From: Asterias amurensis
Lineage: Eukaryota > Echinodermata > Asteroidea > Forcipulatida > Asteriidae
DNA length: 64,000 nucleotides
Direction: 5' to 3'
NCBI RefSeq assembly: GCF_032118995.1
Contig: NC_092665.1
Location: forward strand, 17,008,012 to 17,072,011
Shown: piece after piece, positions 6,536 through 63,782 of the stretch
How positions within the stretch are numbered: position 1 is the first letter of the stretch
Layout of the letters: the number at the start of each line of letters is the position of its first letter
Notes under the pieces: model-generated
The model's database searches: none
Told to the model about the DNA's origin: nothing
The model's input: only the letters and a program-made list of their open reading frames with translations
Made by a program: the position numbers and the translations under genes

Positions 6536-6548
6536 TTGCTGAGGATCG

Positions 6549-33035: not shown

Positions 33036-33150
33036 TACTCCCAGAACTATTTCGGTTTCGTCCGGCTATCATCTCCCTATTTCGGTTTCGTCCGGCTATC
33101 GTCTCCACGGGAGACGATAGCCGGACGAAACCGAAATAGTTCTAGGAGTA
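33036..33150. mobile_element. 115-bp palindromic MITE with 9-bp target duplication
   Basis: A hairpin element beginning TACTCCCAGAACTATTTCGG and ending in the near reverse complement, flanked by GGACCACAC at 33027-33035 and 33151-33159. The left arm carries the segment CTATTTCGGTTTCGTCCGGC twice in tandem, the right arm once inverted. It is a third family in this cluster with a 9-bp duplication. Confidence 0.8.
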
Positions 33151-33475: not shown

Positions 33476-33681
33476 ATTATTTTTCTAAAACATGTTAATC
33501 TAGTATCAATCATTTGTACAAGATGTAGGTCTAAAAAGGCTATGTATTGGACACTTGGCAAACAAAATGCCAATTCCGAGGTGTTTCGGAAATAGTCCCT
33601 AGAAAGGGGCGTGCGAGTGATAACTTACAAACTGATGTTTCAACTTATATTTCATTTTAGCTCCGATCCTCACAAGAGACA

Positions 33682-36600: not shown

Positions 36601-39600
36601 ATAAAGAGATTTTATGGACCCACCTGTAGCCAAGTATAGATGAGATAAAGGCTTGAAAACTAATCTATGTTTTGATGACATTGTTTTATTTTGCAGGCAT
36701 TAGTAAGTGGAGGTGTAGATTCTACTGTCTGTGCTGCACTGTTATCCAAGGTAGGGTTAGGGTTACGCTATTATCCAAGGTAAATGCAAGTACTAAGATA
36801 TTTCAACACTATTCAATGTCTGTCACTTTCATTGCAAGTCCATCAAACAACTTTCTATGTTTGCACAGTATGTTGATTATATGATTACTACTTATATGGT
36901 GTGCCCTTCCTACACACATATCTAAGATGCTTCTGCTATAAGATGAGGGAAATCTACATGGAGTTTCATGTTGGAGTCCAGTTGAGTACAATTCTTGTAT
37001 GAGTGTTGTGGTTTTTCTGCTGTTTTACCAACTTGGGCTGTTGATGAATCATAATTGATGTACACTTCTGTTTCCTAGGCGCTTGATGAGGATCAGGTAT
37101 TAGCAGTACATATTGATAATGGATTCATGCGCAAGAATGAGACGCAGAATGTACAGGAGTCACTTGAGAGAATAGGTCTCCATCTTAAAGGTAAAGTCTC
37201 TAGCATATCAGAAGTCATTTAAGAATTGGTGCTGCTAATCTCATCAATATGTCACTATTACTAATTACAAAAACGAACTTTAACTGTTTTAACTCAGCAT
37301 GCAATGAACCATCAATTTGTTTCATTTTCAATATTCTGCCCTAAGTGTGGCCGTATTCTTTGATGTGTTGTTACACCTTGCTGTCTACTTACTTAAATTT
37401 GGAGTTTATGTGATGAAGATGTAAAGCGAGCTAAATGAAATCTGTCTGTAACATTCGATACATAACCTAATATGTCTCAAGGCTCCAACTTGTGTCTTTT
37501 TGGATAAGTGAACTTTATTTCAATCACATACCGTTGAGTGTCTCAAAGGATACTTGGCTTTACAAAAATTGTTACGCCATTTTGACTCCGTTAAAATCCA
37601 ATAAATACCTACACAACTACACTATGTTCATATATCTTTGTATTGTTTTTTATTAGTTGTGAATGCATCCCAATCTTTCTACTGTGGCACAACAACCGTC
37701 CCAGTAAAGAAGAACGATCCCAAGTCTGCTAAGCGTACAACTAAGATGCTAAATACAACCAATGACCCAGAGGAGAAGAGACAGATTATTGGGGATACAT
37801 TTATGAGGATTGCTGAAGAAGTCTGTATGGAGTTGAACCTCAAACCAGAAGATACCATTTTAGCACAAGGTAAAAGTTGGAGATATAAGACAACATTGCA
37901 TCATATATCTACACAACACACAAAGGAGGATAGCATCCATCCTTTTAGTTTATTTTTTAGATCATTTGTTTTTGCTGGTGTCATGTATTAGACATTTTGT
38001 TTGTTCACAGGAACGTTGCGTCCAGATCTTATTGAGAGTGCATCCCACATGGCAAGCGGCAAAGCAGATGCAATTAAAACCCATCATAATGATACTGAGC
38101 TTGTTCGTCAGCTAAGACGTGAGGGACGCGTTGTTGAACCCTTGAAGGATTTCCATAAAGACGAAGTAAGAGCATTGGGAAGAGAGCTGGGGCTTCCTTG
38201 TGAATTAGTACAAAGACATCCTTTCCCTGGTAAGCAAAATAAGTGTTATTTTAGTTTATGTATTTATGAATATGGACAATATTAATGGATTAGTGGAACT
38301 AAAGAGATATTTCTGACAGTTTTGTAATTTATTTGTTACTAGGTCCTGGATTGGCAATTCGAGTCATCTGTGCTGATGAGCCCTACATGTGTAAAGACTT
38401 TGTTGAGACAAACTCTATTCTACACATCTTAGTAGATTACAATGCAGCAATTAAGAAGGTAAGGTTAATTGCTAAAAGGCAAGATTTTTGTTAATGCTTG
38501 TCATGTTTGTGGCAATGTCTGTTTGCAGTTTGTTCATCAACACCCTGGACTTGTATCTGTTGATTTATTTCAAGGGGTTTTATTCTAGTTACTTCTTTTC
38601 GTTAAATTCCTCTGAACAATCTTAAATAATATGTGATAAAAAATGTTGGTGTTCAGATGATCTCTACAACTTTCAGTTTTATTTTAAAGGAACACGTTGC
38701 CTTGGATCGGTCGAGTTGGTCTTTGAAAAGCGTTTGAAACTGTTTTTTATAAAATGCATATGGTTGGGAAGATGTAAAAGTAGTATACAATGATCCACAC
38801 AAACATGCCTCGAAATTGCACGGTTTTCCTTTTACCTTGTCGACTAACACGGTCGGCCATTTATGGGAGTCAAATTTTTGACTCCCATAAATGGCCGACC
38901 GTGTTAATTCGCACAGTAAAAGGAAAACCACGCAATTTCGAAGCAAACTTGTGTGGATCATTGTATTCTACTTTACAAACATCTTTTCAACCATATGCTT
39001 TTTATAAAAAACGGTTTCAAGCGCTTTTTATAGACCAACTCGTCCGATCCAAGGCAACGTGTTCCTTTAAAGAGGCAAATTTGTCATCACAGAGATGAAA
39101 GGCTTGGCCGTTGTCACGACCAGACCTTTAGATATCTAATTGAAATGATGTAGTCTGTAAAACCTATACAATGTAACATCCGCTACATTTAGGGAGCTTC
39201 GTTTCCACACCAAGAGGAACATTTTATTAATTTTTTAGGATTGTTTTTTTTTTGTATACAATCTGATTTATCTGTGTCATGCTTTATGGTGAATTGATCA
39301 TGTTTGTTTTGTGTTTTTCTAAGCAGCCTCATGCATTAATGGGTCGAGTTACATCTTCAATGTCCGATGAAGAACAAGCTTTACTCTGCTCCATAACATG
39401 CTCAGATCAGTACTGTGCAACCTTACTACCTATTAAATCGGTTGGCGTTCAGGTAAGTTAGTCACATCGACCCTATACTTTATGTTAAGGTATCTTATAA
39501 GATGCTCAGATCAGTACTGTGCAACCTTACTACCTATTAAATCTGTTGGCGTTCAGGTAAGCTAGTCACATCGACCCTATACTTTATGTTAAGGTATCTT

Positions 39601-42256
39601 ATAAGATGCTCAGATCAGTACTGTGCAACCTTACTACCTATCAAATCTGTTGGCGTTCAGGTAAGCTAGTCACATCGACCCTATACTTTATGTTATTATA
39701 AGATGCTCAGATCAGTACTGTGCAACCTTACTACCTATCAAATCTGTTGGCGTTCAGGTAAGCTAGTCACATCGACCCTATACTTTATGTTAAGGTATCT
39801 TATAACATGCTCAGATCAGTACTGTGCAACCTTACTACCTATCAAATCTGTTGGCGTTCAGGTAAGCTAGTCACATCGACCCTATACTTTATGTTAAGGT
39901 ATCTTATAAGATGCTCAGATCAGTACTGTGCAACCTTACTACCTATCAAATCTGTTGGCGTTCAGGTAAGCTAGTCACATCGACCCTATACTTTATGTTA
40001 AGGTATCTTATAAGATGCTCAGATCAGTACTGTGCAACCTTACTACCTATCAAATTGGTTGGTGTTCAGGTAAGCTAGTCACATCGACCCTATACTTTAT
40101 GTTAAGGTATCTTATAACATGCTCAGATCAGTACTGTGCAACCTTACTACCTATCAAATCTGTTGGCGTTCAGGTAAGCTAGTCACATCGACCCTATACT
40201 TTATGTTAAGGTATCTTATAAGATGCTCAGATCAGTACTGTGCAACCTTACTACCTATCAAATTGGTTGGTGTTTAGGTAAGCTAGTCACATCCGCCCTA
40301 TACTTTATGTTAGGTATCTTACATTACATGTATGTGAAAATCAGTGTGAGTGCCACTGCGAGATCTCAACTGGTGTGTTTTGTGCGTTAGAGAAATGAGA
40401 AGGAAGCTGGCTAAATTTGTTCATCAAGTTATTGTATTTTGAAGTGAATAAATAAGTAGAAAGATGTTAACTGTAATACAGTGAGGCAATATTATGTCAG
40501 CTGTTCATTTTATTTTTGGAGTGGGTAATTATATTTGAAGTTGGTTGATGTACCTTCATCACTATCAATTTGATTAGGAACTATTCCAGCATTCAGTGCA
40601 AGATTCCACTGTATAATGTCTGTAATGGAAAGTTTCTTATTTACCTTTATAGGGAGATGGAAGGACGTACAGTTACGTAGCTGGGATTAGTACTCGCTCA
40701 GATCCTGACTGGGAGAAACTCTTGCTACTTTCTAAGATGATCCCTAAAATATGTCATAATATCAACAGGTATGGTTAGAATCAGTAGTGATTAGCAAAAC
40801 TTTCAACAATCCTGTGTTATATAATAGATGTTAAATCGTGTGTTAGCTCTAGGTCCCCTTTTTTTTATTTATGTGGTTCCCATTTCTGACCATTCCAATG
40901 TTTGGCCTTTAAAACCAAAACCAAAACAAACCTGCCATCCTGCCTTGGATTTTGTTTAATTCAGTTTCAATAGAAGAAACCAAATCATGACTTGACCCAA
41001 GTGACTTGATGCTCCAACTCGACACAAATGACTCAACTACAACTCTGGTTATTTCATTCTAACATTGTCTACCTGTTTTCACTTCCTTTAGAGTTGTTTA
41101 CATTTTTGGTGCTCCAGTTGAGGATTCAATAACAGACGTTACCCCCACTCTGCTTACACCAGGTGTGCTGGGCACACTCCGACAAGCTGACCACTTAGCA
41201 CAAGCAGAACTTGTCCGAAGTGGTACGTTACCTTTTACTCAACTTAACTTGAATTGAGCTTATAAAAAACCTTTGCCAACATATTTTCATGTTTTTGACT
41301 TCTCTTCCTGTTCTGTAACTTTGTCCTGATGAATATTTGACAACTTCACATTTTTGTGTGTAACTTTGTTTCTTGTATCTAACCAATTAACAAATATATA
41401 CTTATTTTAGTGTTTTGTTTGGAATGTCATGAATTGAATGTATACTTGAAACATGTTATTTAGCTACTATGGTTCTATATATGGTTTGAGGCATTGCATG
41501 CTGAGGTACCAAATGAAATATATACTATTGTCCTACAAAGTCAAAGGGTAAATCGTAAATATATTTAAATAGCATTTACTTCTGTAGGTCTAGATATGCT
41601 TTCTTACTGATACTGTTATAATTATTATCGGAATATAGGTTTGCTATAATGCCAGTTCAAAAGTCATAGTTTCATTTTGTAAATTAAAAATTACTCTCAA
41701 ATTTGTTACTACACCAAATGATTTCTTCGTTTCAAATGAATTTGAGATTGAAACTACTTCTTCCAACTGCTTAGGCTATTACAACAAGATCAGCCAGATG
41801 CCGGTCATCCTAGTGCCTATTCATTTTGATCGCAGTCCCACAATGCATCAGCCTTCATGTCAACGAAGTATTGTTATACGAACATTCATCACAAATGACT
41901 TCATGACCGGGATACCAGCACAACCAGGGAAGCAGTTACCAGAAGAGGTATGAATCAAGAAACCCAAATCTATCATGTTCAATTGATTTTGATTTCTTTT
42001 AATAAGAATTATTGCTTTTAATTCTTAAATATGATTAAACTGTTCTTTTTGCTTAGGTCCGTTGATTATATATGTTTATTTATTGAATATTTGACATGTA
42101 CGAAGTGATTTTGTTTGACCTTTCCCAATTCCTCCTTTTTGTTTCCCCCTATAGGCTCTGAATAGAATAGTAGAGAGTGTGTTGACTGTACCAGGTATAT
42201 CCAGAGTTCTGTATGATCTGACAGCCAAGCCACCAGGGACAACAGAATGGGAGTAA
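33682..42256 (+). CDS. GMPS: GMP synthase (glutamine-hydrolysing), 685 aa
   Basis: Converts XMP to GMP using ATP and glutamine, the last step of de novo guanine nucleotide synthesis. Coding exons: 33682-33774, 34010-34101, 34542-34656, 35036-35133, 35965-36068, 36277-36470, 36697-36750, 37079-37190, 37657-37869, 38011-38229, 38343-38458, 39327-39452, 40653-40768, 41092-41222, 41775-41947, 42155-42256; all phases match. The N-terminal glutamine amidotransferase has its triad as C96 (GICYG), H182 and E184 (FHPEV). The ATP-pyrophosphatase P-loop is SGGVDS at 236-241. Downstream are [14 protein letters not shown] and [12 protein letters not shown]. The C-terminal dimerisation part ends in the conserved PPGTTEWE. 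Length is close to the human enzyme (693). The ATG lies 21 bases into its exon, so the first exon is untranslated. The donors of exons 7 (36750) and 12 (39452) are tandemly duplicated. Confidence 0.97.
34213..34371. repeat. 53-bp tandem repeat, three copies, GMPS intron
   Basis: Three adjacent 53-base copies beginning ATACCCGGTTCATTGCAGTA, with a few substitutions, in the intron after the second GMPS coding exon. It contains no exon sequence, unlike the arrays at the exon ends of this gene. Confidence 0.85.
36742..36782 (+). repeat. Duplicated splice donor at GMPS coding exon 7
   Basis: TTATCCAAGGTA, the exon end plus donor, recurs 29 bases downstream (36742-36753 and 36771-36782), with GTAGGGTTAGGGTTACGC between. 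Only the first donor keeps the frame into the next exon (GCGCTTGATGAG, phase 0). The second would add 29 bases. Confidence 0.75.
38688..39066. mobile_element. 379-bp palindromic MITE flanked by TTAA, GMPS intron
   Basis: Ends AGGAACACGTTGCCTTGGAT and its reverse complement, flanked by TTAA at 38684-38687 and 39067-39070. The arms pair over nearly the whole length, with a perfect inner stem around ATTTATGGGAGTCAAA (about 38859-38896). TTAA flanks suggest mobilisation by a piggyBac-type transposase; no transposase is encoded. Both strands show similar ORFs, which are simply the two arms read in opposite directions. I recall this family as abundant in sea star DNA. Confidence 0.85.
39401..40319 (+). 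repeat. 104-bp array copying the end of GMPS coding exon 12 with its splice donor
   Basis: The last 52 coding bases of the exon (39401-39452), its donor, and the next 52 intronic bases form a unit repeated eight more times (starts 39505, 39609, 39706, 39810, 39914, 40018, 40122, 40226). All are 104 bp apart except one 97-bp step. The first donor is GTAAGTTAG, the others GTAAGCTAG. Reading past the first donor meets TAG in frame within three codons. Copies starting at 40018 and 40226 share an AAATTGGTTGGTG variant, showing later block duplication. Confidence 0.93.
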
Positions 42257-43445
42257 TGACATTCTTGCCATCTGCAGGCTGTCATTCTACAGTCTGGTCA
42301 TAATTTGTAGTGTTGCGCTTTGTAGTGTTGCCATTCTGCAGTCCATATTCTGCAATTCAGCGTTCTTCAAAGTTGCATTTTTGCAACCTGGTGCTCTTTT
42401 GATTTTTAGTCCACAGTTTTGTGCAGACAGATTTTACTGAAAAGAATTGTTTCTACTCACTGACAGAAATAATCTTGGAGTTTATTGGAAAGTTAAAAGT
42501 AGCAGCTGTGTTAATTACATGTTTTTGAGTCACCTATTTTTGCTAGCAAATCAAGAGAAAAAAAAGGAAATGAGCCCATTTTTGACATTAAGCACTGGTA
42601 TGAAATGCACCATAAATATATGTTGATTTGCTTTGATATGTTGCAATCTGATTGGGTGGTGTATGTTTCAATTATCTCTTCCATTATTTCACTTCAGAGA
42701 TACTGGTAGTATGACATCAGTGCATATTATTGTTTCAGAGCCAGTACTTCATGGAGGCAATAATTACCTCCATGTATTTGTCATTGCGTTGATGCCTCTT
42801 GAAAGGGGCCTGCATATGTGAATGTCCATAATAGAGCTGTCCTTTACTAAAGAAAAGCTGCTTTGCCATGACAGAAAGTGTCGGGCCTGAAGACTATTCT
42901 AGATCTGGGTTGAACCTTCGGGCAATTTAATCCTTTTAAAAAGCAAAGTATTTCATTTGAAATTTGACTATTTTTCTACGATTTAGCAAGCTTTTACGAT
43001 TTAGCAGCTCTTTAGCGGAACTGTTGATCATGTACATAATGTTTTGAATAGGCTTCCTAAGGGAAATTATACAGATGGCTGTAATGAGGGTAAGATACTG
43101 AAATAATTTAGTTTATCGATACAAAAATTAAAAATATTATTTGATCAAGCAAGTTGTGCAAAACAATATTCAAAAACACCCCTTGAAGTAAATAAAAATT
43201 TCCACCGAATTGAAATGTTAAGAATTACCAAAATGCTTAACCCTCGGCCTGAATTACATACATTCAAATTCAATGAAAAAATATTGGCATCAGTGTTCTT
43301 TTAATTTGATGAAATTATTTTGTTATTTTGTGATTTAATAATATTATTTGTTAATGCATTATTTTGCAAACGTCATGGGAAAAACTGTTTAATTATGTCT
43401 TAACTGCAATGTTTTATACACATTTTTAAAACGATTTGTCAAAAC

Positions 43446-43645
43446 AGAGACGTTGTTTAACGTTGTGTGTTTGCTGGGTTACAATTTGTCTGGTAAGAGA
43501 CGTTGTTTAACGTTGTGTGTTTGCTGGGTTACAATTTGTCTGTTAAGAGACGTTGTTTAACGTTGTGTGTTTGCTGGGTTACAATTTGTCTGGTAAGAGA
43601 CATTGTTTAACGTTGTGTGTTTGCTGGGTTACAATTTGTCTGGTA
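43446..43645. repeat. 50-bp tandem repeat, four copies, GMPS 3' UTR
   Basis: Four nearly identical 50-base units beginning AGAGACGTTGTTTAACGTTG. Each contains the inverted pair GTTGTTTAACGTTGTG, which may form a small stem. The copies differ at only one or two positions, so the array is recent. Confidence 0.9.
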
Positions 43646-44529
43646 AGACATTTACATTAATTTTGTGTTGCACCAGATGTTCGGAATAAGTTGTTCTTGA
43701 AGATTTATTTTCCACTAATGAATCTAGCAGGTTTTTTTTTCCTGAAAACATAAAGGGATTTTATGCAAAGAAATATCCTTGGTTGGCAGTTAATGTTGTG
43801 CTTCATTCTTGTGATGTTTTTTTGTTTTTTTGTCTTTCAATTTCTTGATAGCAACTTTGAATTTAAATGTAATGATAATTTGTTTTGCCTGCTTCATTTG
43901 ATTGTGGTGTGTTTAATATGTCAGAGTGATTTGTTTTTGTGTTTGCTCAGTTTATTCCCAAGGGTTAAATCTTCAGATTATGTCATATTTCTTAGAATTA
44001 CGGGGTTAAGATGGAAAACAATTTATGTACAACTATCTGAAACTTGTTAAACGTGGACTTGGAGTACCAGCCTTGCCCGTCTGCAGGGTGTTTTGAAATA
44101 GCTTGCCTTCAACTATAGTGTTTTAATTGCAATGTAACCCTAAAGTTGACAACATATTTTCACAGGTTGGTTACTTGGTGTTTTTGAAAGTAGGGGATTT
44201 GGAGCAAATTTACCCATCAGAAAGACCATGATGTCTCTGCCTTTAACTTGTAAGTAGCTCAAAAAGTCATTTTGTTTGCATTTAAGGGAAGAGATACATT
44301 ATGGCAGCCAAGTTACCATATGGTTAATGTTAGTTGTCACAAATGCAAGCGGGGAGATGTCCAACAATTGTGATTTTACAATTGTACAACTGAATTAATT
44401 TGATCTGAATAGTGTATCCAAAGTTTGAATTTTGTACATAATATATTGTGACAATATTAGTGTCTCATTTGGAGGAGTGTTTTATGTGCCTTTTACAGGT
44501 TGCATCACTATTAAAAATGACAGTTTTGC

Positions 44530-44535
44530 AATAAA
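44530..44535 (+). terminator. Polyadenylation signal of GMPS
   Basis: AATAAA on the plus strand, followed by a GT-rich segment (AATGTGTC...GTATGTTGTG). It is the last plus-strand signal before the PPP1R7 3' end. Confidence 0.5.
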
Positions 44536-44574
44536 ACAACAAAATTAAACAAAATGTGTCTAGACAATCCAGAG

Positions 44575-46334: not shown

Positions 46335-49300
46335 TTATCTTGTAAAGGTTGCATCAATTTGCGTCAATGAAGGAAGTGTTAACTTGATCTTCTTTCGATA
46401 CATTGGATCTTTAGCTATAGGGTTATGCTCAAAGTATACTGTCTGTAGCTTTGTTGCATTCTTCAGTTGCTCAATGTCAGACCAATGATCAAGCTGATTA
46501 CCATTGAACTGTAAAAATAAACGACAGTCATTTATAAGGCATTAGTTCATAACATAATCAACATTACTGGATGCAGGACATAATGATATTGCCAAACCTG
46601 TGTTCTCTATAAAACTATCGTACATTGGTGCAGACTTAACATAAATGTTTGTTTAAAATGAGTTTTTTAATTTTGATAGGTTGTATTGTTCAGTATGTAC
46701 ATTACAATGATTGGAAAGTTAAATATCAGTAACTCTTCTTACCCAAAACTCTTCAAGATTTGTTAGATGGCCGACATTCTCAATTCGAGAAATCCGATTA
46801 CTGGCAAGATCTAATGTGGTTAAATTCACCTGAACAAAAATGGAATGAAAAAAAAAATAATAACAATAATTATATGTATAAATCAGCTAAGTTAAACAAA
46901 AAACAACTATTAATATCAGATCTGGTCATCCCAAAGTACAAGCTCTCTTTTTTCTGACACTCACTTCCGGAAATTAAACATTGACAAAACATTTGACTTG
47001 TAAATGTGTGGCAAGTACTGGTTCATACCTATGATGTCTGAACCAATCTTTAGTTCATGTGTTGTTTTAGTCTAGCCTTTACCAGACTCACTTTCTAGAC
47101 TCAATTTTGTCAGAAAACTCATGTTGTTTTGTTCTTTCTACCCTAACCAGACCCTAACCTTATTGTCTTTATCTACTTACATTACATTGAAGATTTTCTA
47201 GTTTCTGAATTCCATTATGGCTGATGTAAAGTTCCTCTAAACTCTCTAATTCATCAAGACCTTCAAGCTTGGTGATTCTGTTGCTCTGTAAAACATGGCA
47301 ATCAAGTAGTCAAGTTAACCAATTATTTAATAATTCATTTGTATTTGTTGTTTACACATTCAACAGCGCAAGCGCCAATAACAGGATGGTGAATAGGACA
47401 TGTGGGAGGAAAACTTAAATGGGTGAAACTAACGCAGCCAGGTCGGGACTGAAAAACTAATCCACATCGAACCAGGGTGAAAGGCAGGGGGCAAAAAACA
47501 CTGGGCCAACTTGAGTTATACATGTGCATACATGTACAATGGAGGTTGCCAAAGTTCTCCACCATTATACAAATTGTTGCCTATTATTTTCTTCTGTCCA
47601 ACCTTAACTGGTACTCAAGATATTGTCGAAATGAACAGAAAGAAATCAAATGTCGTTTAGAGTTTTTGTTACTACCATGCTTTCTGCAGTGTAAATATTC
47701 TTCTACTGTACATACCTGTATACTCAGAACTTTCAGCTTTTTGAGAGGACCCAAATTTTCTAACTTGCTGATCTTGTTCTTGCCCACAAAGAGACTCTCA
47801 AGGTTCACTAATGAATCAAAATTCTCTAGTTTCTACAAGTAAAAACCAATCATACAATAATTGTTAAGATCAAATCCAAAGGGCACTACAATCAATAATG
47901 ACATACCAGATTACTCTTAGACATGCTAGACAAGAACACAGAATTTCCAACACCTATCAAACTGTTCTGGAAATGTATTCATTCAGTTATTTCAGTTTTT
48001 TTCTTAGTATCTTTCATCCATTCATTCTCAATGATAAGAACCAGAAGATGGTCTTTCTTTCAAGATTTAAAAATTTATTTGAATGTAAATTGGAATCGAC
48101 ACATCACATACCACAATCCGATTGTCACCAAGTTCCAACATTGTCAATTGGCTCAAGTTAGAGAGACTTCTGATGGATGAAATCTTGTTGTGAATTACAA
48201 ACAACTTCTGAAGATTTACAAGGGTGTCAAGATGTTCAAGCTTTCTTATCTTGTTGAACGATAGGTCCAGTATCCTGCAATTAGCATACAAACAATTGGT
48301 ACTTATTTATATATTTTTATTATTGATTCTTTCCTTTCTAAATGAAAGACTTGTGTTGATATTAAAGAACAGAATTGTACCTGCTGCTCAGCTGAAGTAT
48401 TGATTCCACCCATGGGTTAAAACTGAGATATGATGATTATTTTTTTAAAATATAACTGGGAGAACAAACTACGAACCACCCTGACAAATCAAGCTTGATC
48501 AATGCATGGCATGGTCACATTATTATACCATTGAGTTAGTTAAGGTTGACATACGTTAAGTTGACAAGTGTCTCAAGGTTTTCAATCTTAGTGAGAGCGT
48601 TGTCGTAAACATCCAGCTCAGTCAGAGTTGTTAACCCTTCTAGATTCTCCAACTTCTTGATGAGATTCTGACGCAAACATAATGTCTGTGGATTGTAAAC
48701 AAATTATTTGAACCAAGAGATCGTTTTTTTTTTCAACTGGGAAAGTATTCAACAACATACAATTTAACATGTACAGTATTATACCATTTGGAAATGTTGT
48801 TACGTTATTTAGTGTGGATAAATCCAACTCCAATAAACCACAAATTATACTTTGTAATAATTTTGTCATTTAACTTAAGTGTTGCCCTTGATAAATCAGG
48901 AAGACCAAGACCGTTAACAGCTCAGTTTTGTGAAAACATACCTCAATTTGTGTAAGTTTTTCAAATCCTTCAATTTTCTCAATGCGTCTATGGTTTAGAT
49001 CCACATCCTGCAGGGGTGTAATAAATAAAAATATAGTCAGTGAACAAACATTTTGTAATAATTGCAGTTTTCAACAAACTGTTTAATTGTGTGAACAAAC
49101 TTAGTTAAACGTTGTCCAGTCCAAACTTCCTCTCTCAAAAAGTTGACAAGTGTTGATGTGACAATTTATAAAATAATAACTATTTGTTGTAAGTTGAGTG
49201 TGAGCACTATGTCTTGGGAATACTTTGAAATCAAGCCAATAGATATGCATATTACCAAATCATCAGGGTTAAGATCTATAGGAGGTAAATTCCTAGGAGG

Positions 49301-49907
49301 AATTTCTTGAACTCCTGGTCCTCCTGCCTCTTCTTCTTCTTCTTCATCTGACTCTGAGGCCTCATCAGAAACAACATCTAAGTTTTGAAATAGAAAACAT
49401 CAACGCATCAAATCAAAGTTCATATGTTTTGTACAAGTTTTGACAAATTAAAAACATTGTGCTTACATTACTGTTACAAATACAATTACAATTACATAAC
49501 CATAAGCTGATAAACAACAATTTTCAAAGATATTAGATTTACTACAAATAAAATTTAAAAAACTAACACATTTGCTTGGTCGTATTAACAAATTTCGAAC
49601 AGTAACTGGGTCAATGTTGCTTTATTATTTCTACCTCCATTGAGTCCATGGTCAGACGATGGATAAGTCGCAGGCACTCATGCTTGAAATGAAATAATTG
49701 TTGACATTTGACAATGTATGATGGGTTTATGATACTTTTGTCTTATTTGATTTTTTGAAAAAGAAAGTTTTTGAGTCCGATCTCTTGACATAAAAGTTAT
49801 AAATATTACTTGTATGCTGTTAAAGATGTATTACCAGTTTGTGATTTAGCTTTTTCTTCCTCTTCCTGATTTACAGATTTCTCGGTTGGTGTAGTGTTGG
49901 TCGCCAT
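46335..49907 (-). CDS. PPP1R7: Protein phosphatase 1 regulatory subunit 7 (sds22), 345 aa
   Basis: A leucine-rich-repeat protein that binds the catalytic subunit of PP1 and regulates its assembly and mitotic role. Coding exons, in transcript order: 49835-49907, 49256-49377, 48942-49007, 48555-48685, 48112-48274, 47716-47832, 47181-47285, 46743-46829, 46335-46508. All have GT-AG borders and matching phases. Residues 1-65 are an acidic tail containing SDEASESDEEEEEE. Residues about 66-320 are SDS22-type repeats of about 22 residues (for example LVNLTILDLSFNKIRKLEHL and LNHRRIEKIEGF), about eleven in all as in vertebrates. The C-terminal LRR cap ends LPSLTQIDATFTR, matching the family (human LPSVRQIDATFVRF). 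Length is near the human 360. The ATG is the first codon of exon 1, 308 bp from the divergent NECAP start. Confidence 0.96.
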
Positions 49908-50214
49908 CTTTAGCCTTTTGCACCTTTTGCTCGGTTTTATTTTTGATTGTCAAAAAGTTGAACAGCGACCTCTTGAGGAAAAATGTTGTCATGAGGAAAA
50001 ACACTGGTAAACAGCAGACACATATCTAAGTATTCCGTAGGTCGACATAGTACCAGCTGGTCAGCGTGAAAGTGTGTACATGATGTTGTACATTACGTCT
50101 CAATGACGTGTGTGTGTGTTTAGTCTACGTCTACTGACTAAACTGCATGTCAGTTGTTTTTATTTAATTATCGTTTATAAATTCCATCCCCTGAAACTTA
50201 TTTTGTAAAACAAA
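49908..50214. promoter_or_regulatory. Shared head-to-head promoter of PPP1R7 and NECAP
   Basis: Only 307 bp separate the two divergent start codons, so both 5' untranslated regions and both core promoters must fit here unless an untranslated exon lies elsewhere. It contains a CRE half site (ATGACGTG, near 50104) and TACGTCT nearby. TATAAA at 50176-50181 lies too close to the NECAP ATG to be an obvious TATA box. Both genes are housekeeping type, the usual setting for bidirectional promoters. Confidence 0.6.
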
Positions 50215-53200
50215 ATGTCTTTAGAATACGAGAGTGTTTTGTGTGTTAAGCCGGAGGTGCAGGTCTTTACAAAAATACCAGCAAGATCATCAAATCGGGG
50301 ATTTAGGTAAGTAAATTACGGCTGCCAATTCCTCAATCCTACTAATTTTCCATTTGTTATGTATTATTTATTATAATTAATTAAGCCCACTTGTATTGTA
50401 AGTTGTTTGTTGTTTGTTGTTGGGCTGCCTTTTTTACATGGCTCTCTTTTTAACATCAGTCTGTAAGTTGTAATGTTCAATAGTTGCTTGCATACTTTTA
50501 TCTAAAGACTAAACAATGCAATGATGTGATTATTATACAACTTCTGAAGTTCTGTTCTGATCAACATCCCAGACAGAGAAGGGGGGGGGGGGGTGGTCGT
50601 GACACATGATTTGGGGCTCTGGAATGACGATACACTAAGTACATGATGAAAAGGTTGTTTAATAAGGGAATCAATGTGTGGTGAAGAGGTTTTCGGAAAA
50701 GTTTCCGTATGGCGCCACCACTTTTTCATTCGATATGAAATAATATAGTATCTAATTTACCTCAATGAGATATCCCTTTTTGTAAAAATGAGTGAAAAGG
50801 TGGTGGCGCCATACGGAAAGTTATCCAGGTTTTCAACTAGTGGTTTAATCCAAACGTGGCCTGGTTCTTGATAATTTATCGAGACGTAGTCAAGGTAAAT
50901 TAGAAAAGAACCACTAGTTGAAAACCGATTCAATTCAACCATGATTCAACACACTTTGATTCACATTCATAAATACCTTTTCGGTCAAAAACATCATCAC
51001 TTTTTGGTCAAAAAGTAAAATAAATGCAAAAATTATAATTGTTAAATGATTTCTTTCAACACAACACCCCTCCACGCTCTCCGCTGCCCTCGCATAAACA
51101 AAAGGGAATGCTGTGGGCGTCGCGCGTATCGTGTGATGTTGCACAACTGTTTCAGCCGTTGCTCTCGACCAATAAGAATGAAGAAACTGTCTTATAAGAA
51201 CAGGTGCAAGGTCGCGTGTCACGCTCATGAATTAACACTTTTTACAGGTCATTAACAAAAGGTTTATGCACACCCACGTAATGCGCTCTCCACCAATAGG
51301 AGTAGAGTAACTGCCTGGGGTATTTATGAATATTTAATAATAATATTGATACTATAAATAATAAGTAACAGTAACACAGTCTCAACTTGTTTGTTCCAAA
51401 TGTTAATTGTCTGGTGGTTTTTGTTTAGCCAGCAAAGTCTAGAAACCTAGGCCCTGTGCTGTGGCCTGTGTAAGCTGTGACACCTGTGTTTATTATAAGG
51501 TGTGTGTGTAGTAATTAAATAAACATCGATTTACAGTAACAAAACATTTTGAAACCCAACCTTCCATAGTTGCGATAACGTAACCCTCCTCCCTCTCCGG
51601 CTTCACCGTCGGGAGGAGGGTTACATTATCGCAACTACACCTTCCATTAGTTTGATTTTGTGGCATTACTTTGACATTAAAACACAATACAGGGATTTTT
51701 AATCATCAACTTGAACAATCAAGTTATTTTATCTTTTAGGGCCTCAGAATGGAAATTAGATAGTCCAGAATGGATTGGGAGACTACGGATTGTGGCCAGA
51801 GGAAAAGAATGCGTTATTAAACTTGAAGACAAAACAACAGGTAAACTTTCCTAGTGTAAGGATTTGTTACAATGTACATTGTAAGACCAGCTGTCGATTT
51901 CACAAAACTCTTCCCAACTTAAGACTAATCTTAGGACTTAGGATGAGTCCCAGCCCTGCACTGTAACATGCAGACCTTAAGATTAATCCCAAGTTAGGAA
52001 GAATTATCGTCCTAACTCGAGATAAGACGAGTCCTAACTCTTTGTGAAATCGACGGCAGGTTATTTAAATTTCATCAGCATGGATACTTCTTCCCTCATT
52101 TTTATTGCAAGACTTTCTAGGGGGATTTTGCATTTAATGTTAAATCAGGCTTTGTAGATTTGGAACCCTATCATTTGTTTGTTTTATTTTATTGGTACAT
52201 GTTAAAAGTCATGGCCAAAGGACGGAATGACTTGGAATTATAAAATAAGAATAAATATGTTAAAAATATTAAGTTAAAGCACAAACAAGAGCCACAAAAG
52301 ACTTACTACAAAATATAGGAACACCAAGACGAAACAATAATTATGGGCCCAATCGGCCAGTTTGTCCTCATAGACACCAAGGATTTTCATTGAGCTATTC
52401 TTCTTGTTCTAAACCAACACTCTCTCGTTGAGATGTAGAAAAAAAGCCAAACCAGCGAGCTGTTCCCTTATACATCTCTTTAGAACTTCTTGCCTGGTAA
52501 ATGTTTGAACCCTTCCCATCCTACAATCTAGAGAGTTTAAGAAGGAATAGCATGTTCTGGTATATTCATGTAAAATTTGTTCTTTTTGTAGCCCCTTACC
52601 AAGAGTGGCTTTTAGCCTTGTTTGGGGCAAACTTGCATGGACAAATTAATTGAATTAAACAAACAATAGAGCCTGGTAGTATAGCCTACATGTAGGCTGA
52701 GGCCTTACTACACATGAAGAGTCCAGTGGATCCTTATTTCAGTAATTCTATTTGAAATTCCCCTACATTATTCCAGGTGAACTGTTTGCTGAGGCACCAG
52801 TGGAGCAATTTCCTAGTATAGCAGTGGAGGCAGTGCTAGATTCCAGTCGATACTTTGTCATCAGAATATCAGATTCAGGTGTGTACTCTCAATCTAAGGA
52901 CATTTTAGTTTCAGGCACAATTCTTTTTTAATAGAAATATCAAATTATCAACAAGTAAAACATACATGTCTGATGTATGATGTGCATTGTCGCTATAGAA
53001 TAGAATACTCATTGCTGTTTTTTTTTGTTCCTTTACAGGTCGTAAGGCTTTTGTTGGTAAATACTCATTGCTGTTTTTTTTGTTCCTTTACAGGTCGTAA
53101 GGCTTTTGTTGGTATTGGTTTCACAGACCGAGGAGACTCATTCGACTTCAACGTTGCTCTTCAAGATCACTTCAAGTAAAAATCTTTTTCTTCACCATCC

Positions 53201-55264
53201 ACTTACCTGCTTCCCAAAAGTTGTTATCTGTTCTGATTTTGAATTTGTAAAAAAAAAGATGTAGGAACTTCTCTTTTCACATTGTAAACTTGTACCTTTT
53301 AAATGAAAGAAAGGACAAGACGACCATACTCAAAAGGCAACTTTAATGACTTGCTAGCCTACGCCACTCTATTACAAAAACAACCTGACCGTTTTCTATT
53401 GTATGTTTATTTGCAATTCTCAAAAGATGGTTTCCATGTTATACAAATGAAATTCTTTTTTGCATGTTGACCATTAGAAGACAGAATTGAATATCCATAA
53501 CCAATCGGGGAGTATAGTTTATTAAAATACTGATTGGATCACCCTGGTTCAATACAAATATAATATCTTTATATTCCTTGTTCGCAGATGGCTAAAGCAG
53601 TCTAAAGAGATTGAAGAACAAGAAAAGAATGCAGAGACGAACCCGGGCCCAAAGCTGGACTTGGGCTTCAAGGAGGGACAGACTATTAAAATAAATATTG
53701 GGGTGAGGAAGTTAGCTCGAGTTAAGGCCATTCTGTTCTTGTGCACTGCAGAGCTTACTGTCAGCAAAATGTCTTTGTTGTTCAGATTGGATTATTAGCT
53801 GTAATATGTCCTGTGTACTAATGTTGGGTTAAAAAGTTCAGCATGTAAAATAACTAAGGGAATTACTGTGGAAAAAGTAGTGGTTTTTATTTCAGTCCAC
53901 CAACTAGTCAGAGCCTGTGTCCTTGAGCAAATACTCTACAAACTTGCTATAACCGCTATTTGATTGGTGTTACAATCTCTGCAAACTAGGAAATATATTG
54001 GGATATTGAAGAACCCAGAAAAATGAGTTCACGCAGGGCTAGCTAATAACTCATCTTTCAAGTTTGTTCCTTTCTCTTCATTGTAGGGTAAGAAAACAGG
54101 AACATCATCATCTAGACCAAGGAGCACAGGGGGTGGGATTGCTGCACCAGGTCTTCTTCCCCCACCCCCTGGAGGTGTTAAACCACCCATACAACCCGCT
54201 CCTGGTGCAATAGGTACCCAGTCTGGAGGTCAGAGTTCAATGGGCATATTTACCCAGCAGCAGCAACAGCAGCCAAATGTACTACAACAACCTAATAATA
54301 ACTTTGGCATTTTCGGTAAATAGCATTTTATCCTCTTATTAACTTAAGACAAACTAATTCATAAACCCTAACCACCCCAGAAATCTCTAAACTTACTTAC
54401 CATAAAGATGATTTTGATGGAGATTGTCCCAGTCTTATCAGAATTCTGAATTCTAATCTTACCAGAATCCAATTATGTGCATTGATTTAGCATTGAAGAT
54501 ATTTTATATATGGGTTGCGTGTTGGGTTAAGCCATTCCCACTGATCATTGTTTTAATGTATTATTCCACTATAATCATCTCCTCCAGGTGGCAATAATCA
54601 AGTGCAGTCAAGTCTCGACTTATTAGGAGGGTTTGGAGCCCCAGGAATGCCACAAGCTTCAGCACAGCCAATGACACAACCGATGACACAACCGATGACA
54701 CAACCCATGACACAACCCATGGTACAACCCATGGTACAACCCATGGCGCAACCTATGGCGCAACCTATGGCACAACCTATGGCACAGCAAACCCAACAAG
54801 CATCAACAGACTGGGGGGATTTTACGAGTGCCCAGTAAGTGTTGTCTTTTGTTTGTTGTTAACAAGCTAAAAACCTAACATGTAAGTTAACCCATACATA
54901 ACCAATAACCAGCTTTTGTTTGAAAGTTATTCTATCTTTTATGACAGGTAGGATTTGAATTTCTTTTTTCACTGAATTTTGTCTATGGTTGTTTGCTATT
55001 GTGAAAAGAATTATCAGTTTAACAAACACATCCTCAATTTGCCTTGATTGTTTTTTATCAGAATCCATAGTTTGTGTTGTGCTGCTTATTATGACAAACG
55101 GAAGTTTAGGTTTTGAATGTCCAAGTATTGAAAGGATTGAATCTTTATCATTTTATGAATATTGAAACAAAATAAAAGCAATGAGAATTCTTCAAATTTC
55201 ACATCATAATGTTCTTATTCTGTTTAGATCTGGAGGTGCTAAGAATAGCTGGGTAACATTCTGA
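50215..55264 (+). CDS. NECAP1: Adaptin ear-binding coat-associated protein (NECAP), 334 aa
   Basis: Helps AP-2 and clathrin in endocytosis. Coding exons: 50215-50306, 51740-51840, 52777-52878, 53094-53175, 53588-53702, 54087-54315, 54588-54834, 55228-55264; phases match. The N-terminal PH-like (PHear) domain, residues about 1-165, is strongly conserved: [62 protein letters not shown]. The tail (166-334) is Pro/Gln-rich and contains ten consecutive four-residue repeats of (A/T/V)QPM (about 266-305), absent from vertebrate NECAPs as I remember them. Two adaptor-binding motifs are present: WGDF (about 316-319) and the extreme C-terminal WVTF, corresponding to the vertebrate WVQF end. The tail makes it longer than NECAP1 (275). 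Vertebrate NECAP1 and NECAP2 are paralogues, so this is probably their common orthologue. Exon 4 has a duplicated acceptor. Confidence 0.95.
50695..50826. mobile_element. 132-bp MITE in NECAP intron 1
   Basis: Terminal inverted repeats contain TTTCCGTATGGCGCCACCAC. It is flanked by an 8-bp duplication AGGTTTTC (50687-50694 and 50827-50834), typical of hAT-type insertion. It appears inserted into the left end of the neighbouring inverted-repeat element. Confidence 0.7.
50828..50926. mobile_element. Inverted-repeat element adjacent to the MITE
   Basis: Eighteen-base perfect inverted repeats, GGTTTTCAACTAGTGGTT at 50828-50845 and its complement at 50909-50926, enclose about 63 bp. The left end overlaps the target duplication of the preceding MITE, which suggests the MITE landed inside this older element. 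Its own target duplication is not clear. Confidence 0.6.
51567..51637. mobile_element. 71-bp hairpin of the TAGTTGCG foldback family
   Basis: Both ends match the terminal repeats of the long element at 31366 (TAGTTGCGATAACGTAACCC), leaving almost no internal sequence. Flanks AACCTTCCA (51558-51566) and CACCTTCCA (51638-51646) agree at eight of nine positions. It is thus a minimal derivative of the same family, inserted in NECAP intron 1 near the second exon. Confidence 0.8.
51890..52058. mobile_element. Foldback MITE with TCGATTTCACAAA ends, NECAP intron 2
   Basis: Ends share TCGATTTCACAAA (from 51894) with its complement TTTGTGAAATCGA near 52042-52054. The arms pair imperfectly across the whole element, with repeated TAGGACT and TCCTAACT words. 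No coding capacity. A target duplication could not be fixed. Confidence 0.7.
53004..53113 (+). repeat. Tandem duplication carrying the acceptor and start of NECAP exon 4
   Basis: A 55/56-bp unit (AATACTCATTGCTG, a T run, GTTCCTTTACAG and the exon start GTCGTAAGGCTTTTGTTGGT) occurs twice. The acceptors are at 53037-53038 and 53092-53093. Only the second gives a full-length protein. The first would add 55 bases and reach TAA after the phrase AGGTCGTAA. Confidence 0.9.
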
Positions 55265-58200: not shown

Positions 58201-60898
58201 CAACATTTCCAAACACATTATTTTCTATATCTTTGAGATCCACAATTTAAACACTGAGGGTAATGACGTAGGCTGTTCGCGTTTTCTGCTTGTGGCTTGA
58301 AAGTGGTGGACCGAGCTTTGACCTAATTGGTTTAGATCTGGTGGTTGTGATGAAGGCTATGTAAGCACATCCACTCAGTCCACCTTGTGGTTCAAAAAGG
58401 GATGTAATATCATCCAAGAATTAGGATCATGGTCTCAGTTTGGTGGTGACTCTTCGTATAAGGATATACCTCACCTCCATGATAATGATGATAAAATATT
58501 ACTGCACTATATTAAAGAGATATTATTTAACTTGTACAAAGAATAATTATGGTAAATGGATAGGTACACACATCATGATGATAAATAAACGTTTGACAAC
58601 GTGAGATTTGGGTAATGCTTCGTCATTTCTTTGAATCTGTTATATCATTATGGTAAATGGATAGGTACACACATCATGATGATAAATAAACGTTTGACAA
58701 CGTGAGATTTGGGTAATGCTTCGTCATGTCTTTGAATCTGTTATATCATTGAGTAAACCGTCTGACAATATTTTCTAAATAACTTATTTACAACTCATGG
58801 AAACTTTTAGATCGCTATTTTACAAATAAAATAGCTCTCCGTACTATTTGTAAATTAAACGGGAAAGTTCAAAGAGGGCTTTTATGACACAAACCTAGGC
58901 ACTAGATTTCACAATGGTATAACCATGGATGTATAGGAATGGTTCTGCTTGCGTTTGATGATTGTATTAGTGTTACCGCAGTTTGTATGGCATAGCTCAA
59001 TGACTTTTTGTTCTCATGAGTTCTGAATCTGAGTTGCAAAGTCAATAATGGCGAACTATTGCTCCATGACTAAACATATACAGATCAAATCCAGCTTATG
59101 TGGTTGTTTCAAATCACAGCGCTGTTGGTGTTGGGTTACCTCCACTGTTCAGAATTGGACCTTGAACAGATATCAAAGGAAGTTAGCGTTGAGTAGGGTG
59201 GAGGATTTCCGCGGGTCTGTGTGTACGGTCGGTTAAAATGACCTCCAGTGCAGTGCGAAAGGTATGTTAAATTACCGCTAAACTATTTAGCATTGCTTCC
59301 CGGTTCAGCCTCTTTTTGATAGACACAAAGCCGCACTGTATACATAATATTGCGTAACCTGTTCATCGGGTACATGGGCTTGGTCATCCACGACACGGTG
59401 TCAGTTTAAAACTCCTATCATCCCACACAGTCAACACCCTGGAGGTTACCATCTAAGGTCCGCACTTGACAAGATTTGGTTGGTGAGTTTGGATACAATA
59501 CGTTACCATGTTCTTCTCTGCATGAGTTTTGTCTTTTCTCCATTAATAACTTTTGCTTTTTGGACAACCATTGGGCCGTAATGACAATAAATATTCGTTC
59601 ACCTATATATCATGGAACTTTTTTATCATCTATACCTCCATGCATACATATAGGTACAAATTTACTCGGTGTTATAACTCATGTTCTTTAGACGTAACAG
59701 TGATCATCTAGATTGTGTTTTGTGTGGAATCAATCAGCTGTGGAATTTTCGATCAGCGGGGGCGGTACGTAAAGTTGAAGCCTCAAAATGTCAAGGCTTA
59801 ATATTGTTCTATTAACAATGTCGACTGCACCTAGTTTCTCTGTATGACTCGAACCAAACAGTGCATGTGCCCATTTCCCAAAGGCCAATAAGGTTGCTGT
59901 CACTCAGGAGCGCCATTTATAGTTGTCACTGTCATCAATGAACCAACACTGATCTTGGACCCGTTTTGACACGAAAGCTACAGAGGCAGTTTGTGAACTA
60001 TCACTCATCTCATGTAAAAAGGCCTAAAAATTCTCCACAGTTCTGTTTAACATCCATTGTTTATAGACTCTAAAGCATTTGGTGTTCAGTTCAATTCACT
60101 ATGAAAAGATGTCAACTTGATGCAAAAAAGAAAAGTTATTCCCGTTTTAGATCAAAGACAGCACAGCATTTATAAACATTCTTAATAAAACTCTTAAATG
60201 CATAATATTATAGTCAATTGTTTGACTCTTGAGGAAACCGATTGAAGTGTTGCGTCGAACTCCTCACCTCTTCTGAAACGGTAACGATTTTCAAATAATG
60301 ATAGTAAAACGAAAGACGCGAAGATATTTTTAAGTGAGCTTCTTCACAGCTTCGACAGGCTTACTTTTTGCTGTGTTTTTGCATCGTTTATACCCCAAAA
60401 TGAAATTAATAGATGTCACCATGTTGCCTTTAAGACCTACATTTTTAGCAACCGAGGGCATGCCACGCCCTAGTGGTACATCTAACGCTTGGTGCCAGGG
60501 AATAGTGGATTTATTTTTTGGCTGAAGATTTTGGTACGTTTTGTTTTTAACAATTCTTCGCAAGGATCGTATTATGGACCATTTGCATTCATCTAATGAG
60601 TAATAATCATATTTCAAAGTAAGACCCAAAACATGCTTTATTGTTTTCTTAAAAACGAAAGGTTTAATTTCCTGTTCTTGTTTGATGTGTGGGTGCGGTG
60701 AGATCGCATCGGCCTTTCAATGAGGTCAACTGTACAGAAGTCTTTTTATTGAGTGTTTGAGTTAACGTTTAAAAACTTACAATGTCACTTACCCCCCCCC
60801 CCCCCCCCCCCGATTAACATAATAAAACTACCGTATGTGTCTCTCAGTGGAAAATTGACTACATCTTCTAGATCAACCGTATAATTCTCAAGAGCAAG
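55265..60898. other. NECAP 3' untranslated region and spacer
   Basis: No coding exon is supported. Several AATAAA sites from about 55553 onward could end NECAP transcripts. The segment ATGACCTCCAGTGCAGTGCG before a GTATGT donor near 59271 looks like a first exon but has no partner I can identify. A 101-bp direct duplication lies at 58546, and a run of 20 C at 60792-60811 about 90 bp before the dehydrogenase start codon. Confidence 0.5.
58546..58749. repeat. 101-bp tandem duplication
   Basis: Two adjacent copies beginning ATTATGGTAAATGGATAGGT and ending TTATATCATT, nearly identical (one T/G difference seen). Recent duplication in non-coding DNA. Confidence 0.88.
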
Positions 60899-63782
60899 AT
60901 GGCGAGCACAAATAACGGTTCGACATTCGACCTGGCGACGGCACACTTCAACCCCGACACTGTGGCCATCGTAACGGGATCTGCTGAGGGGCTGGGGAAG
61001 GCGTTTGCTGAAGTCATGCTTCAGAAAGGTGTCAAGGTAATTCAATTTTTTGTCCTTAAAAGAAGGCTCATATTTCGGTAACAACCCCCCCCCCCCAAAA
61101 AAAAAAAAAAAAAAAAAAAAGTGTTATATATCCGCAGGCTTACTTGTTATAAAGGTGGTACAAAGTTGTCGAAAAATATGAAACTTTATCTTTGGAAAAA
61201 CTTGATACAGTGCCGGGCCATTAAGAAAGAAACAGCTGCGCAATTCTGATATTTCATCCTCATTTATTTTCGTTAAGGGCGTTTGTTTAGCAGATATCAA
61301 CGAATCAAAAGGAAAGGAAACACTGGAAGAGTTCAAAAAGTTTGGGGAGGAAAAAGTAATATTCGTCAAATGTAACGTCACATCGGAATCTGACATAGAA
61401 GGTAAATATAACAACATTCTGGACTGAAAAAATGCATAATAAAGAAATAAGTAAATGAACAACATCAAGCTAACGTTTTAACCGTCACTCCTTATGGGTT
61501 AAACTGATTAAAACAATTATTGACTGAACTTCTCATTTGCGCCGATTTTCCCTCTAAACAAGAGTGTATTTCCGTCATTTTGAGTATTTGTTTTTGTCTA
61601 CCATTCCAGCTGCTTTCACGGAGACCAAGACAAAGTTTGGTACCGTCAATCTGTTAGTGAATAACGCTGGTGTACAGAACGAACAAAACTGGCGACTGTG
61701 TGTGGACGTAAATGTGGTGAGTATGTCCTAATACATCTCAGAATAAACTGGCGACTGTGTGTGGACGTAAATGTGGTGAGTATGTCCTAATACATCTCAG
61801 AATCTAAAACTGGCGACTGTGTGTGGACGTAAATGTGGTGAGTATGTCCTAATACATCTCAGAATAAACTGGCGACTGTGTGTGGACGTAAATGTGGTGA
61901 GTATGTCCTAATACATCTCAGAATAAACTGGCGACTGTGTGTGGACGTAAATGTGGTGAGTATGTCCTAATACATCTCAGAATCTAAAACTGGCGACTGT
62001 GTGTGGACGTAAATGTGGTGAGTATGTCCTAATACATCTCAGAATCTAAAACTGGCGACTGTGTGTGGACGTAAATGTGGTGAGTATGTCCTAATACATC
62101 TCAGAATAAACTGGCGACTGTGTGTGGACGTAAATGTGGTGAGTATGTCCTAATACATCTCAGAATAAACTGGCGACTGTGTGTGGACGTAAATGTGGTG
62201 AGTATGTCCTAATACATCTCAGAATAAACTGGCGACTGTGTGTGGACGTAAATGTGGTGAGTATGTCCTAATACATCTCAGAATAAACTGGCGACTGTGT
62301 GTGGACGTAAATGTGGTGAGTATGTCCTAATACATCTCAGAATAAACTGGCGACTGTGTGTGGACGTAAATGTGGTGAGTATGTCCTAATACATCTCAGA
62401 ATAAAACGATTGCAAAAATTGTTGATACACAATTCAGACATCATTCTACCATATTCATTTACTAAACGAGAAAAGAATTATATGTTAGAGCTACGCCAAT
62501 TATATTTATCTGAGTTAAGGCACTGGGTGGAGTTATTCTGAAAGATCAAAACTGTCTCATAATCTCTTGGATCTGTCCCTAACTCAACCTTGAGTGTCTT
62601 CCTAAGTAGGCCAATCAATTCCAAACCTGCGTTGTATTCCTTTTACACAGTTGAACTTACATCCATTCTTTCCGGCTTCCGGAACTTTTCTTACTGTTGT
62701 TTTGCTGTTATCAAATCGTCTACCATCATAATACATTGTTACTTAATTTGTACTTTATATAGAAAGGAACTTTGTCAGGCACATACACTGCACTCAAACA
62801 CATGAGTCTGAGTGAAGGTGGGGACGGCGGTACTATTATCAACATTTCGTCTTTGGCAGGTTAGTAATGTAAAACATTTGTTTTGTTTTGAATATTATCA
62901 GGTTCCCAAATCATAAATATTATAATTTAATATCTTGTTGTATTTGATTTAATTTCTAGAATGTTGTATCGCTATTGTATTTTTCTGCACAGGTTCAATT
63001 AGGTTCAGTTATTTATAAACGTTGGGTTTTCTGTTGAGGATTGAAAACAAGTTCGACTAATTTTCTACAGGAGTTGCTCCGTGTTTAAAAACATCCTTTT
63101 TCACAGAACGTCCTGCTCGTTGCAGCACTATATGTAATACCTATAACCAATTGAAATGGATTGAGTTTCCGCGAATCTTTAAACATGCTTTTTAGTAGGA
63201 AATAAAATGCACATTATTGGCCTACTGGAAACGATTTATCTTGATTTGTTCATAATATCCCCGGTGACGTTTTTCATCATTTAATGGTCCGTTTTCTACA
63301 TCAGGTCTGATACCTATTCCCTACATGCCGACGTATGCAGCTACTAAACATGCCGTTATCGGTTTATCTAAATCAATCATGGTGAGTATTTCAGATCTTA
63401 AAAAATGATTCTGACTTCGTTGTCTTAATGCCATAACAATCGTAATTCCTCGTTGTTTGAGACTTTAGAGCCATTTTAGAAGTTAATTGTACCAAAAAAA
63501 ATCGTCTGGAGATGTTATTACTCGACTGTTTACATCGAAACAAATTGAAACTGCAAAATAAAAACATAAAATCTAAAGAGAACCCGAGTTTGTTTTGTGA
63601 TTCCGTATTTTCCCACTTTGTCTTCAGGCACACCCTACTACCAAGGCATCTGGTATTACAATCGGTGTATTGTGCCCATCTTTTGTAGATACCGCGATGA
63701 TACATGAAGATAATGTTATACTGAGGACTGAATCAGATCGTGCACTCGCAAAGGGAATTCAACAGCAAGCAGGAATATTGCA
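60899..63782 (+). CDS. HPGD: 15-hydroxyprostaglandin dehydrogenase-like SDR, 3' part outside window
   Basis: A short-chain dehydrogenase most like NAD-dependent 15-PGDH, which inactivates prostaglandins. Coding exons seen: 60899-61036, 61278-61401, 61610-61716, 62763-62859, 63305-63381, 63628-63782, with matching phases; the last ends in a GTGAGT donor, so at least one more exon follows. About 233 residues are visible against 266 in the human enzyme. Motifs: nucleotide-binding TGSAEGLG (26-33), Asp52 at the end of the second strand (favours NAD), NNAG (105-108) in NNAGVQNEQNW, which resembles human NNAGVNNEKNW, and the catalytic S153, Y166 and K170 (YAATK). The N-terminus is about 16 residues longer than in human HPGD. 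Other SDR subfamilies are possible because the substrate-binding C-terminus is missing. Exon 3's donor is in a twelve-copy array. Confidence 0.88.
61085..61120. repeat. C12-A24 compound homopolymer
   Basis: A run of C (61085-61096) followed directly by a run of A (61097-61120), in the first intron of the dehydrogenase gene. A similar C-then-A tract followed by TAA repeats is at 9603-9645. Confidence 0.9.
61686..62404 (+). repeat. 59/62-bp array copying the end of dehydrogenase exon 3 with its splice donor
   Basis: Twelve copies of a unit holding the last 28 coding bases of exon 3 (CTGGCGACTGTGTGTGGACG onward), the donor GTGAGTATG and CCTAATACATCTCAGAAT. The first copy is the real exon end (donor after 61716). 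Units are 59 bp (AATAAACTGG type) or 62 bp (AATCTAAAACTGG type) and otherwise almost identical, so the array is young. Reading through the first donor gives GTG GTG AGT ATG TCC TAA, a stop. Confidence 0.93.

Follow-up and report, generated by a model that had tools for sequence, protein, structure and literature searches.

Tandem minisatellites that lie across an exon–intron border are a real and previously described kind of repeat. The minisatellite of human IFI6 (6-16) was reportedly found by Turri in 1995 to give multiple splice donors, and Rogers in 1989 and Zhuo in 2007 are said to have dealt with introns gained when AG/GT sites are duplicated in tandem and with introns from tandem arrays. 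For IFI6, the available text describes the use of two downstream units, resulting in three mRNA species (PMC4526556). Introns formed from tandem copies bearing splice signals are described in the accessible parts of two further papers (PMC2891723, PMC2812944), and one of these indicates that new introns may arise from variable tandem repeats located where exons and introns meet in human paralogues (PMC2812944).

The closest described systems are the so-called mirages of amphioxus, which have been found in Adh3, the globins BflGb6 and BflGb9, troponin C, and PGBD5, according to the available portions of two reports (PMC3087553, PMC3902484), the troponin C and PGBD5 cases coming from the second (PMC3902484). 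These mirages are minisatellite-like, occur at 5' and 3' borders with units of 10-160 bp, and have homogenised inner copies, the cluster ends being excluded from homogenisation. RT-PCR on amphioxus mirages revealed regular splicing, as stated in the accessible text of the first report (PMC3087553). Copy numbers in PGBD5 were 2 vs 7 and 3 vs 6 between lancelet versions, and re-sequencing argued against assembly error in the part of the second report that is available (PMC3902484). All mirage-named examples found in these partial texts are cephalochordate. Among the open-access entries listed, judged by titles and the starts of abstracts, none announced arrays of this kind in echinoderms or in any marine invertebrate but lancelets, which is weak evidence, and a search naming echinoderms returned no papers.

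Gene models and repeat inventory

In the current study, a stretch of DNA of 64,000 nt (the window) was analysed. Five genes were assembled from their open frames under the guidance of homologues: a TRIM-like gene (21680-28058), GMPS (33661-42256; 16 exons), an LRR gene on the minus strand (46335-49907; 9 exons), which we take to be PPP1R7, NECAP (50215-55264; 8 exons), and an HPGD-like dehydrogenase (60899-63782; 6 exons), which is probably truncated by the window end. Every frame in these models is open, and the models provide 44 donors and 44 acceptors (88 junctions), including the GMPS 5' untranslated acceptor and the last HPGD-like donor, two sites placed from the sequence alone.

The joined GMPS protein aligned with 2vxo_A at 1039 bits, covering residues 17-685, the HPGD-like protein with 15-hydroxyprostaglandin dehydrogenase (2gdz_A; E 3.1e-47), and the NECAP protein with 6owo_N (E 6e-79). 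No gap interrupted the alignments with these solved homologues where GMPS exon 12 joins exon 13 or where HPGD-like exon 3 joins exon 4, and a one-residue gap was located near the NECAP exon 3/4 join. A Pfam scan of the four proteins other than GMPS identified RING/B-box/fn3, LRRs, DUF1681, and adh_short, with SPRY slightly under the cut-off. Rfam returned 0 matches at the gathering score in the window, and the GC content ranged from 0.345 to 0.410 across the window in 4-kb steps. Word scans of viral sequences and of genome contigs were uninformative, each giving a single hit: the viral one is GC-rich over the 601 bases inspected by eye and shows no additional likeness, and the other, in a Xanthomonas MAG, is taken as chance. 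We also observed a single 488-aa open frame (stop to stop) at 6543-8009; palindromic, MITE-like sequences at 33047-33140 and 51560-51640, a TTGCGATAA-type end also being seen by eye near 33240; and two near-identical 101-bp copies at 58546-58750, between NECAP and the HPGD-like gene.

TRF produced 25 rows in the window, which were merged into 19 arrays, and a modelled splice junction lies inside three of the 19, namely the GMPS exon 12 donor, the NECAP exon 4 acceptor, and the HPGD-like exon 3 donor. In all three, the unit itself spans the exon–intron junction, as in mirages, and the unit sizes (104, 56/55, and 59/62 bp, respectively) are within the minisatellite-like 10-160 bp of the published cases. 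A first-pass annotation of this DNA had claimed four junction-straddling tandem duplications in three neighbouring genes. Three of the four are borne out by TRF and the gene models, and three genes do bear arrays, but the fourth duplication, in GMPS at 36742, is absent from the TRF list, and the minus-strand LRR gene separates GMPS from NECAP. The copy numbers given there, 9 in GMPS, 2 in NECAP, and 12 in the HPGD-like gene, were confirmed by counting the copies.

Anatomy of the duplicated junctions

The GMPS array (39393..40321, plus strand; TRF 104 bp x 9.0, 95% match) begins within coding exon 12 (39327..39452, plus strand, gene model), and its unit consists of the last 60 nt of this exon, the donor, and the start of intron 12, one spacing being 97 bp. 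The exon 12 donor (39452/39453) lies within the array, and the nine donors start at 39453, 39557, 39661, 39758, 39862, 39966, 40070, 40174, and 40278. In the computed frame outcomes, copy 1 leads to the full 685 aa, and copies 2-9 each lead to a stop at codon 514. Donors were scored with a matrix built from 41 window donors, the three affected donors being excluded. The copy 1 donor, CAGGTAAGT, scored 13.6, the top of the 44 modelled donors, and the decoys scored 11.95 (copies 2-8) and 9.2 (copy 9), corresponding to the 55th-93rd percentile of the same 44.

Signs of copy turnover were directly visible in the GMPS array. Copies 3, 4, and 6 are identical, copy 5 equals copy 8, and copy 9 is closest to copy 7. 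The most divergent copies are 9 and 1 (8/89 apart), followed by inner copy 7, which is nearly equal to copy 1 in this respect; the array therefore combines concerted inner copies with divergent ends, as mirages do, though inner copy 7 is fairly divergent. This pattern would fit minisatellite turnover with block exchange. The ordered variants and the block pattern argue against a simple assembly duplication, an argument that is weaker for the HPGD-like array. Variable columns were found in 6/60 exon-derived and 3/29 intron-derived positions (Fisher P=1), and copy 9 carries a stop in its exon-derived part; both the equal variation and this stop are as expected of unused copies.

The GMPS unit holds CAG/GTAAG, which is readable as both an acceptor and a donor. 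Recursive splice sites have the form AG/GTAAG. If donor 1 were spliced to the CAG in one of the subsequent copies, a donor might be restored and the mRNA would be unaltered; acceptor-like sites in the array are weak, the best reaching the 23rd percentile of modelled acceptors.

Two other repeats were observed near this array. Intron 11 of GMPS contains a large foldback element (38683-39071) approximately 250 bp before the array-bearing exon, whose arms pair over 93 nt (91%) and over 98 nt (87%). This element may resemble echinoderm repeats, and a literature search on it returned no papers. It was rejected as a breakage source for the array, as the same search found only 14-20 nt pairs in the NECAP array region and none in the HPGD-like region. 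Approximately 1.2 kb beyond the GMPS stop codon lies a 50-bp x 4.1 array (43446-43648), whose unit includes a strong donor-like word, CTGGTAAGA, picked out by eye (score 10.6, P=0.005).

The HPGD-like array (61686..62405, plus strand; TRF 59 bp x 12.1, 98%) is composed of 12 units of 59/62 bp and includes the last 31 nt of exon 3 (61610..61716, plus strand, gene model), whose donor (61716/61717) is within the array. The donors, at 61717, 61776, 61838, 61897, 61956, 62018, 62080, 62139, 62198, 62257, 62316, and 62375, all scored 8.7 (34th percentile). The frame stays open from copy 1, and copies 2-12 each lead to a stop at codon 127. A 52-nt core is identical in 12/12 copies and is thus uninformative on concerted evolution; the spacer has two forms, with an irregular alternation of 59 and 62 bp. 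Acceptor-like sites are weak in this array as well (best at the 27th percentile of modelled acceptors).

In NECAP, an acceptor was duplicated (53004..53114, plus strand; TRF 55 bp x 2.0, 98%), and the unit (56 and 55 bp) consists of the intron end, the acceptor, and the first 21 nt of exon 4. The two acceptors correspond to exon starts at 53039 and 53094, and exon 4 as modelled (53094..53175, plus strand) uses the last, exon-proximal one (junction 53093/53094). Both acceptors scored equally, at the highest value among the 44, and the T tracts of the copies differ. The upstream acceptor leads to a stop at codon 118. An 18-nt micro-exon, formed by acceptor 1 and a weak new donor (14th percentile), would keep the frame and repeat six residues, so that the use of an extra copy need not always be destructive. 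Two copies are too few to inform on concerted evolution. Exon 7 of NECAP additionally includes an in-frame 12-bp coding minisatellite (54662-54786).

The GMPS exon 7 donor region (36742..36782, plus strand) contains a direct repeat of the 12-mer TTATCCAAGGTA (36742-36753 and 36771-36782) and not a tandem array, as a 17-nt insert (36754-36770) separates the copies; donors are present at 36751 and 36780. The insert together with its left edge holds the telomere-like TAGGGTTAGGG, the sole such word in the window on both strands. The repeat doubles the donor but looks like a small insertion, and the telomere-like insert could be a repair insertion. Use of the second donor leads to a stop at codon 267, although it outscores the donor that keeps the frame (10.3 vs 7.3).

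Origin and tolerance of the arrays

We consider it likely that the three arrays are mirage-type minisatellites within genes, which covered a junction by chance and are tolerated as the exon has not lost its own splice site. A short tandem duplication would by chance take in a splice junction; later, in two of the genes, it would expand via unequal exchange or slippage. The original exon would retain its own site, the additional copies being on the intron side; therefore, exon-proximal splicing would give the normal message, the array would be carried along as intron sequence, and direct use of the other copies would result in a frameshift or a stop. According to the computed frame outcomes, the protein is preserved in each array by the exon-proximal copy, which is the first of the donors and the last of the acceptors. 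Of the first-pass suggestions, the one that agrees best with these data is tolerance owing to a first donor that remains functional, since copy 1 is in frame and all extra copies of GMPS (8) and of the HPGD-like gene (11) lead to a stop. We infer that the exon-proximal site is probably the one used, that the arrays are probably near-neutral, and that they may have been born and grown in the way described.

As the HPGD-like decoys are as strong as the first donor and the NECAP acceptors are equal, nothing in the sequence gives a reason why the exon-proximal copy should win. First-come-first-served pairing during transcription would explain the choice of donor, not that of the NECAP acceptor.

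The placement of the arrays is compatible with chance, which we counted for this chance-minisatellite reading, and the result for units of at least 40 bp was counted against it (P=0.015 in the window, 0.049 and 0.064 in the gene-rich sub-regions), so that a mild bias may exist. Splice junctions or donor-like words might be favoured birthplaces of tandem duplication, linked to transcription or repair, an explanation that we regard as unlikely. In favour of it, border duplication recurs in several amphioxus genes. The one-unit test, in which one unit per array was placed randomly and wholly exonic positions were barred, gave 0.97/19 expected with 3 observed for all arrays in the whole window (P=0.067), 1.23/13 at 21-64 kb (P=0.114), and 1.24/10 at 33-64 kb (P=0.113). 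With units of at least 20 bp, the expectations were 0.82/12 (P=0.041), 1.14/10 (P=0.093), and 1.17/8 (P=0.096) in the same three regions, and with units of at least 40 bp, where 3/6 were observed, they were 0.60, 0.92, and 1.02. The junctions were taken from the five modelled genes only, and missed genes would raise the expectation. In collapsed coordinates, the 19 units represent 1.1% of the sequence.

Placement of full arrays gave 2.73/19 expected against 3 observed (P=0.54), an overstated expectation because arrays grow after birth. In the position control, 4/88 junctions were in a local direct repeat of at least 12 nt vs 3.99 expected (4.5% of 3224 non-exon positions); this control leans against a bias because all copies count as targets, and the one-unit test is fairer. 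The excess at junctions is mild at most and, in a window selected for the feature and with tests run on several subsets, not secure. The clustering that the first-pass annotation called striking thus concerns arrays really present in the sequence, but a secure excess over chance does not follow.

To evaluate donor-like words, the top donor-like score within each unit was compared with 400 random stretches. In the 16 arrays off modelled splice sites, the combined Fisher P was 0.034, driven by 2-3 arrays: the words were strong in two, at 7418 and 43446 (P=0.005 each), and one more array gave P=0.05. The median P was 0.43, and seeding at donor-like words was judged unconvincing. A seeding bias at splice-site-like words, as proposed earlier, is not established by these marginal words or by one-unit P values of 0.015-0.114 depending on the subset. 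R-loop formation, also proposed, found no clear support in a weak test, as GGG is absent from all three units and the GC skew is -0.10 (GMPS), 0.28 (HPGD-like), and 0.16 (NECAP). Microhomology at the array flanks, assessed by eye, was dropped as evidence: the HPGD-like flanks share AAAAC at the junction, with copies that lack the exact predicted join, and the shared stretch is 2-3 nt in GMPS and none in NECAP.

A broader proposal, which we consider doubtful, is that splice junctions acquire or retain tandem duplications more often than the rest of this genome does, that donors tolerate long arrays and acceptors do not, and that the GMPS copies could form a recursive ladder leaving the mRNA unchanged. 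The difference in tolerance would come from the order of transcription, which reaches the exon-proximal donor first and the exon-proximal acceptor last. The asymmetry between 9 + 12 donor copies and 2 acceptor copies, seen in three cases only, offers a testable prediction.

A regulatory function, in which decoy donors tune splicing or yield decay-targeted isoforms, appears very improbable. All decoys in GMPS (8/8) and the HPGD-like gene (11/11) lead to stops, so that their use would reduce protein output, and the GMPS decoys reach the 55th-93rd percentile of the modelled donors; however, many out-of-frame duplications would act alike, the GMPS copies vary to the same extent in their exon and intron parts, the identity of all 12 HPGD-like cores fits recent turnover as well as it fits conservation, and the lancelet Adh and TnC mirages make no aberrant mRNAs according to the available text (PMC3902484). 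An assembly artefact or inflated copy number, the main dull alternative of the first-pass annotation, is hardly to be expected: it would suit the identity of the HPGD-like cores and has lancelet parallels in the accessible literature, the BflGb6 array being aberrantly assembled in the draft (PMC3087553) and the PGBD5 arrays differing among sequence versions (PMC3902484), but the variants of the GMPS copies are ordered, one of the spacings there is shorter by 7 nt, and the end copies diverge, the 59/62 bp HPGD-like spacers alternate irregularly, and the NECAP copies (56 vs 55 bp) have unlike T tracts; the exact copy number is less certain, most of all for the 12 identical cores.

Comparison with described systems

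The present arrays resemble AG/GT intron gain in their tandem copies with splice signals, including the CAG/GTAAG of GMPS. They differ from it in that an existing junction was copied, the protein needs no new intron, and the internal acceptor-like sites are weak. With IFI6, as far as its accessible description extends, they share an exon-border minisatellite with donors in downstream units; unlike IFI6, the units measure 104, 59/62, and 56/55 bp, and every GMPS and HPGD-like donor past the first leads to a stop. Further coding isoforms from downstream donors, as in IFI6, were not found among the outcomes computed from the sequence for the 8 GMPS and 11 HPGD-like extra donors.

Regular splicing and length differences are features of the amphioxus mirages in the available reports, and the arrays described here are known from one DNA sequence. 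The genes are other than those of amphioxus, and the copies number up to 12. Three mirages in one window provide clean material for investigating how the cell picks among up to 12 near-identical splice sites. In comparison with the accessible accounts of amphioxus, the likeness extends to the duplicated border, the unit size, the presence of both border types, and the homogenised inner copies with divergent end copies, and the copy turnover in GMPS resembles that of BflGb6 (PMC3087553). In a host other than a lancelet, these arrays would make the mirage phenomenon wider than the papers found report.
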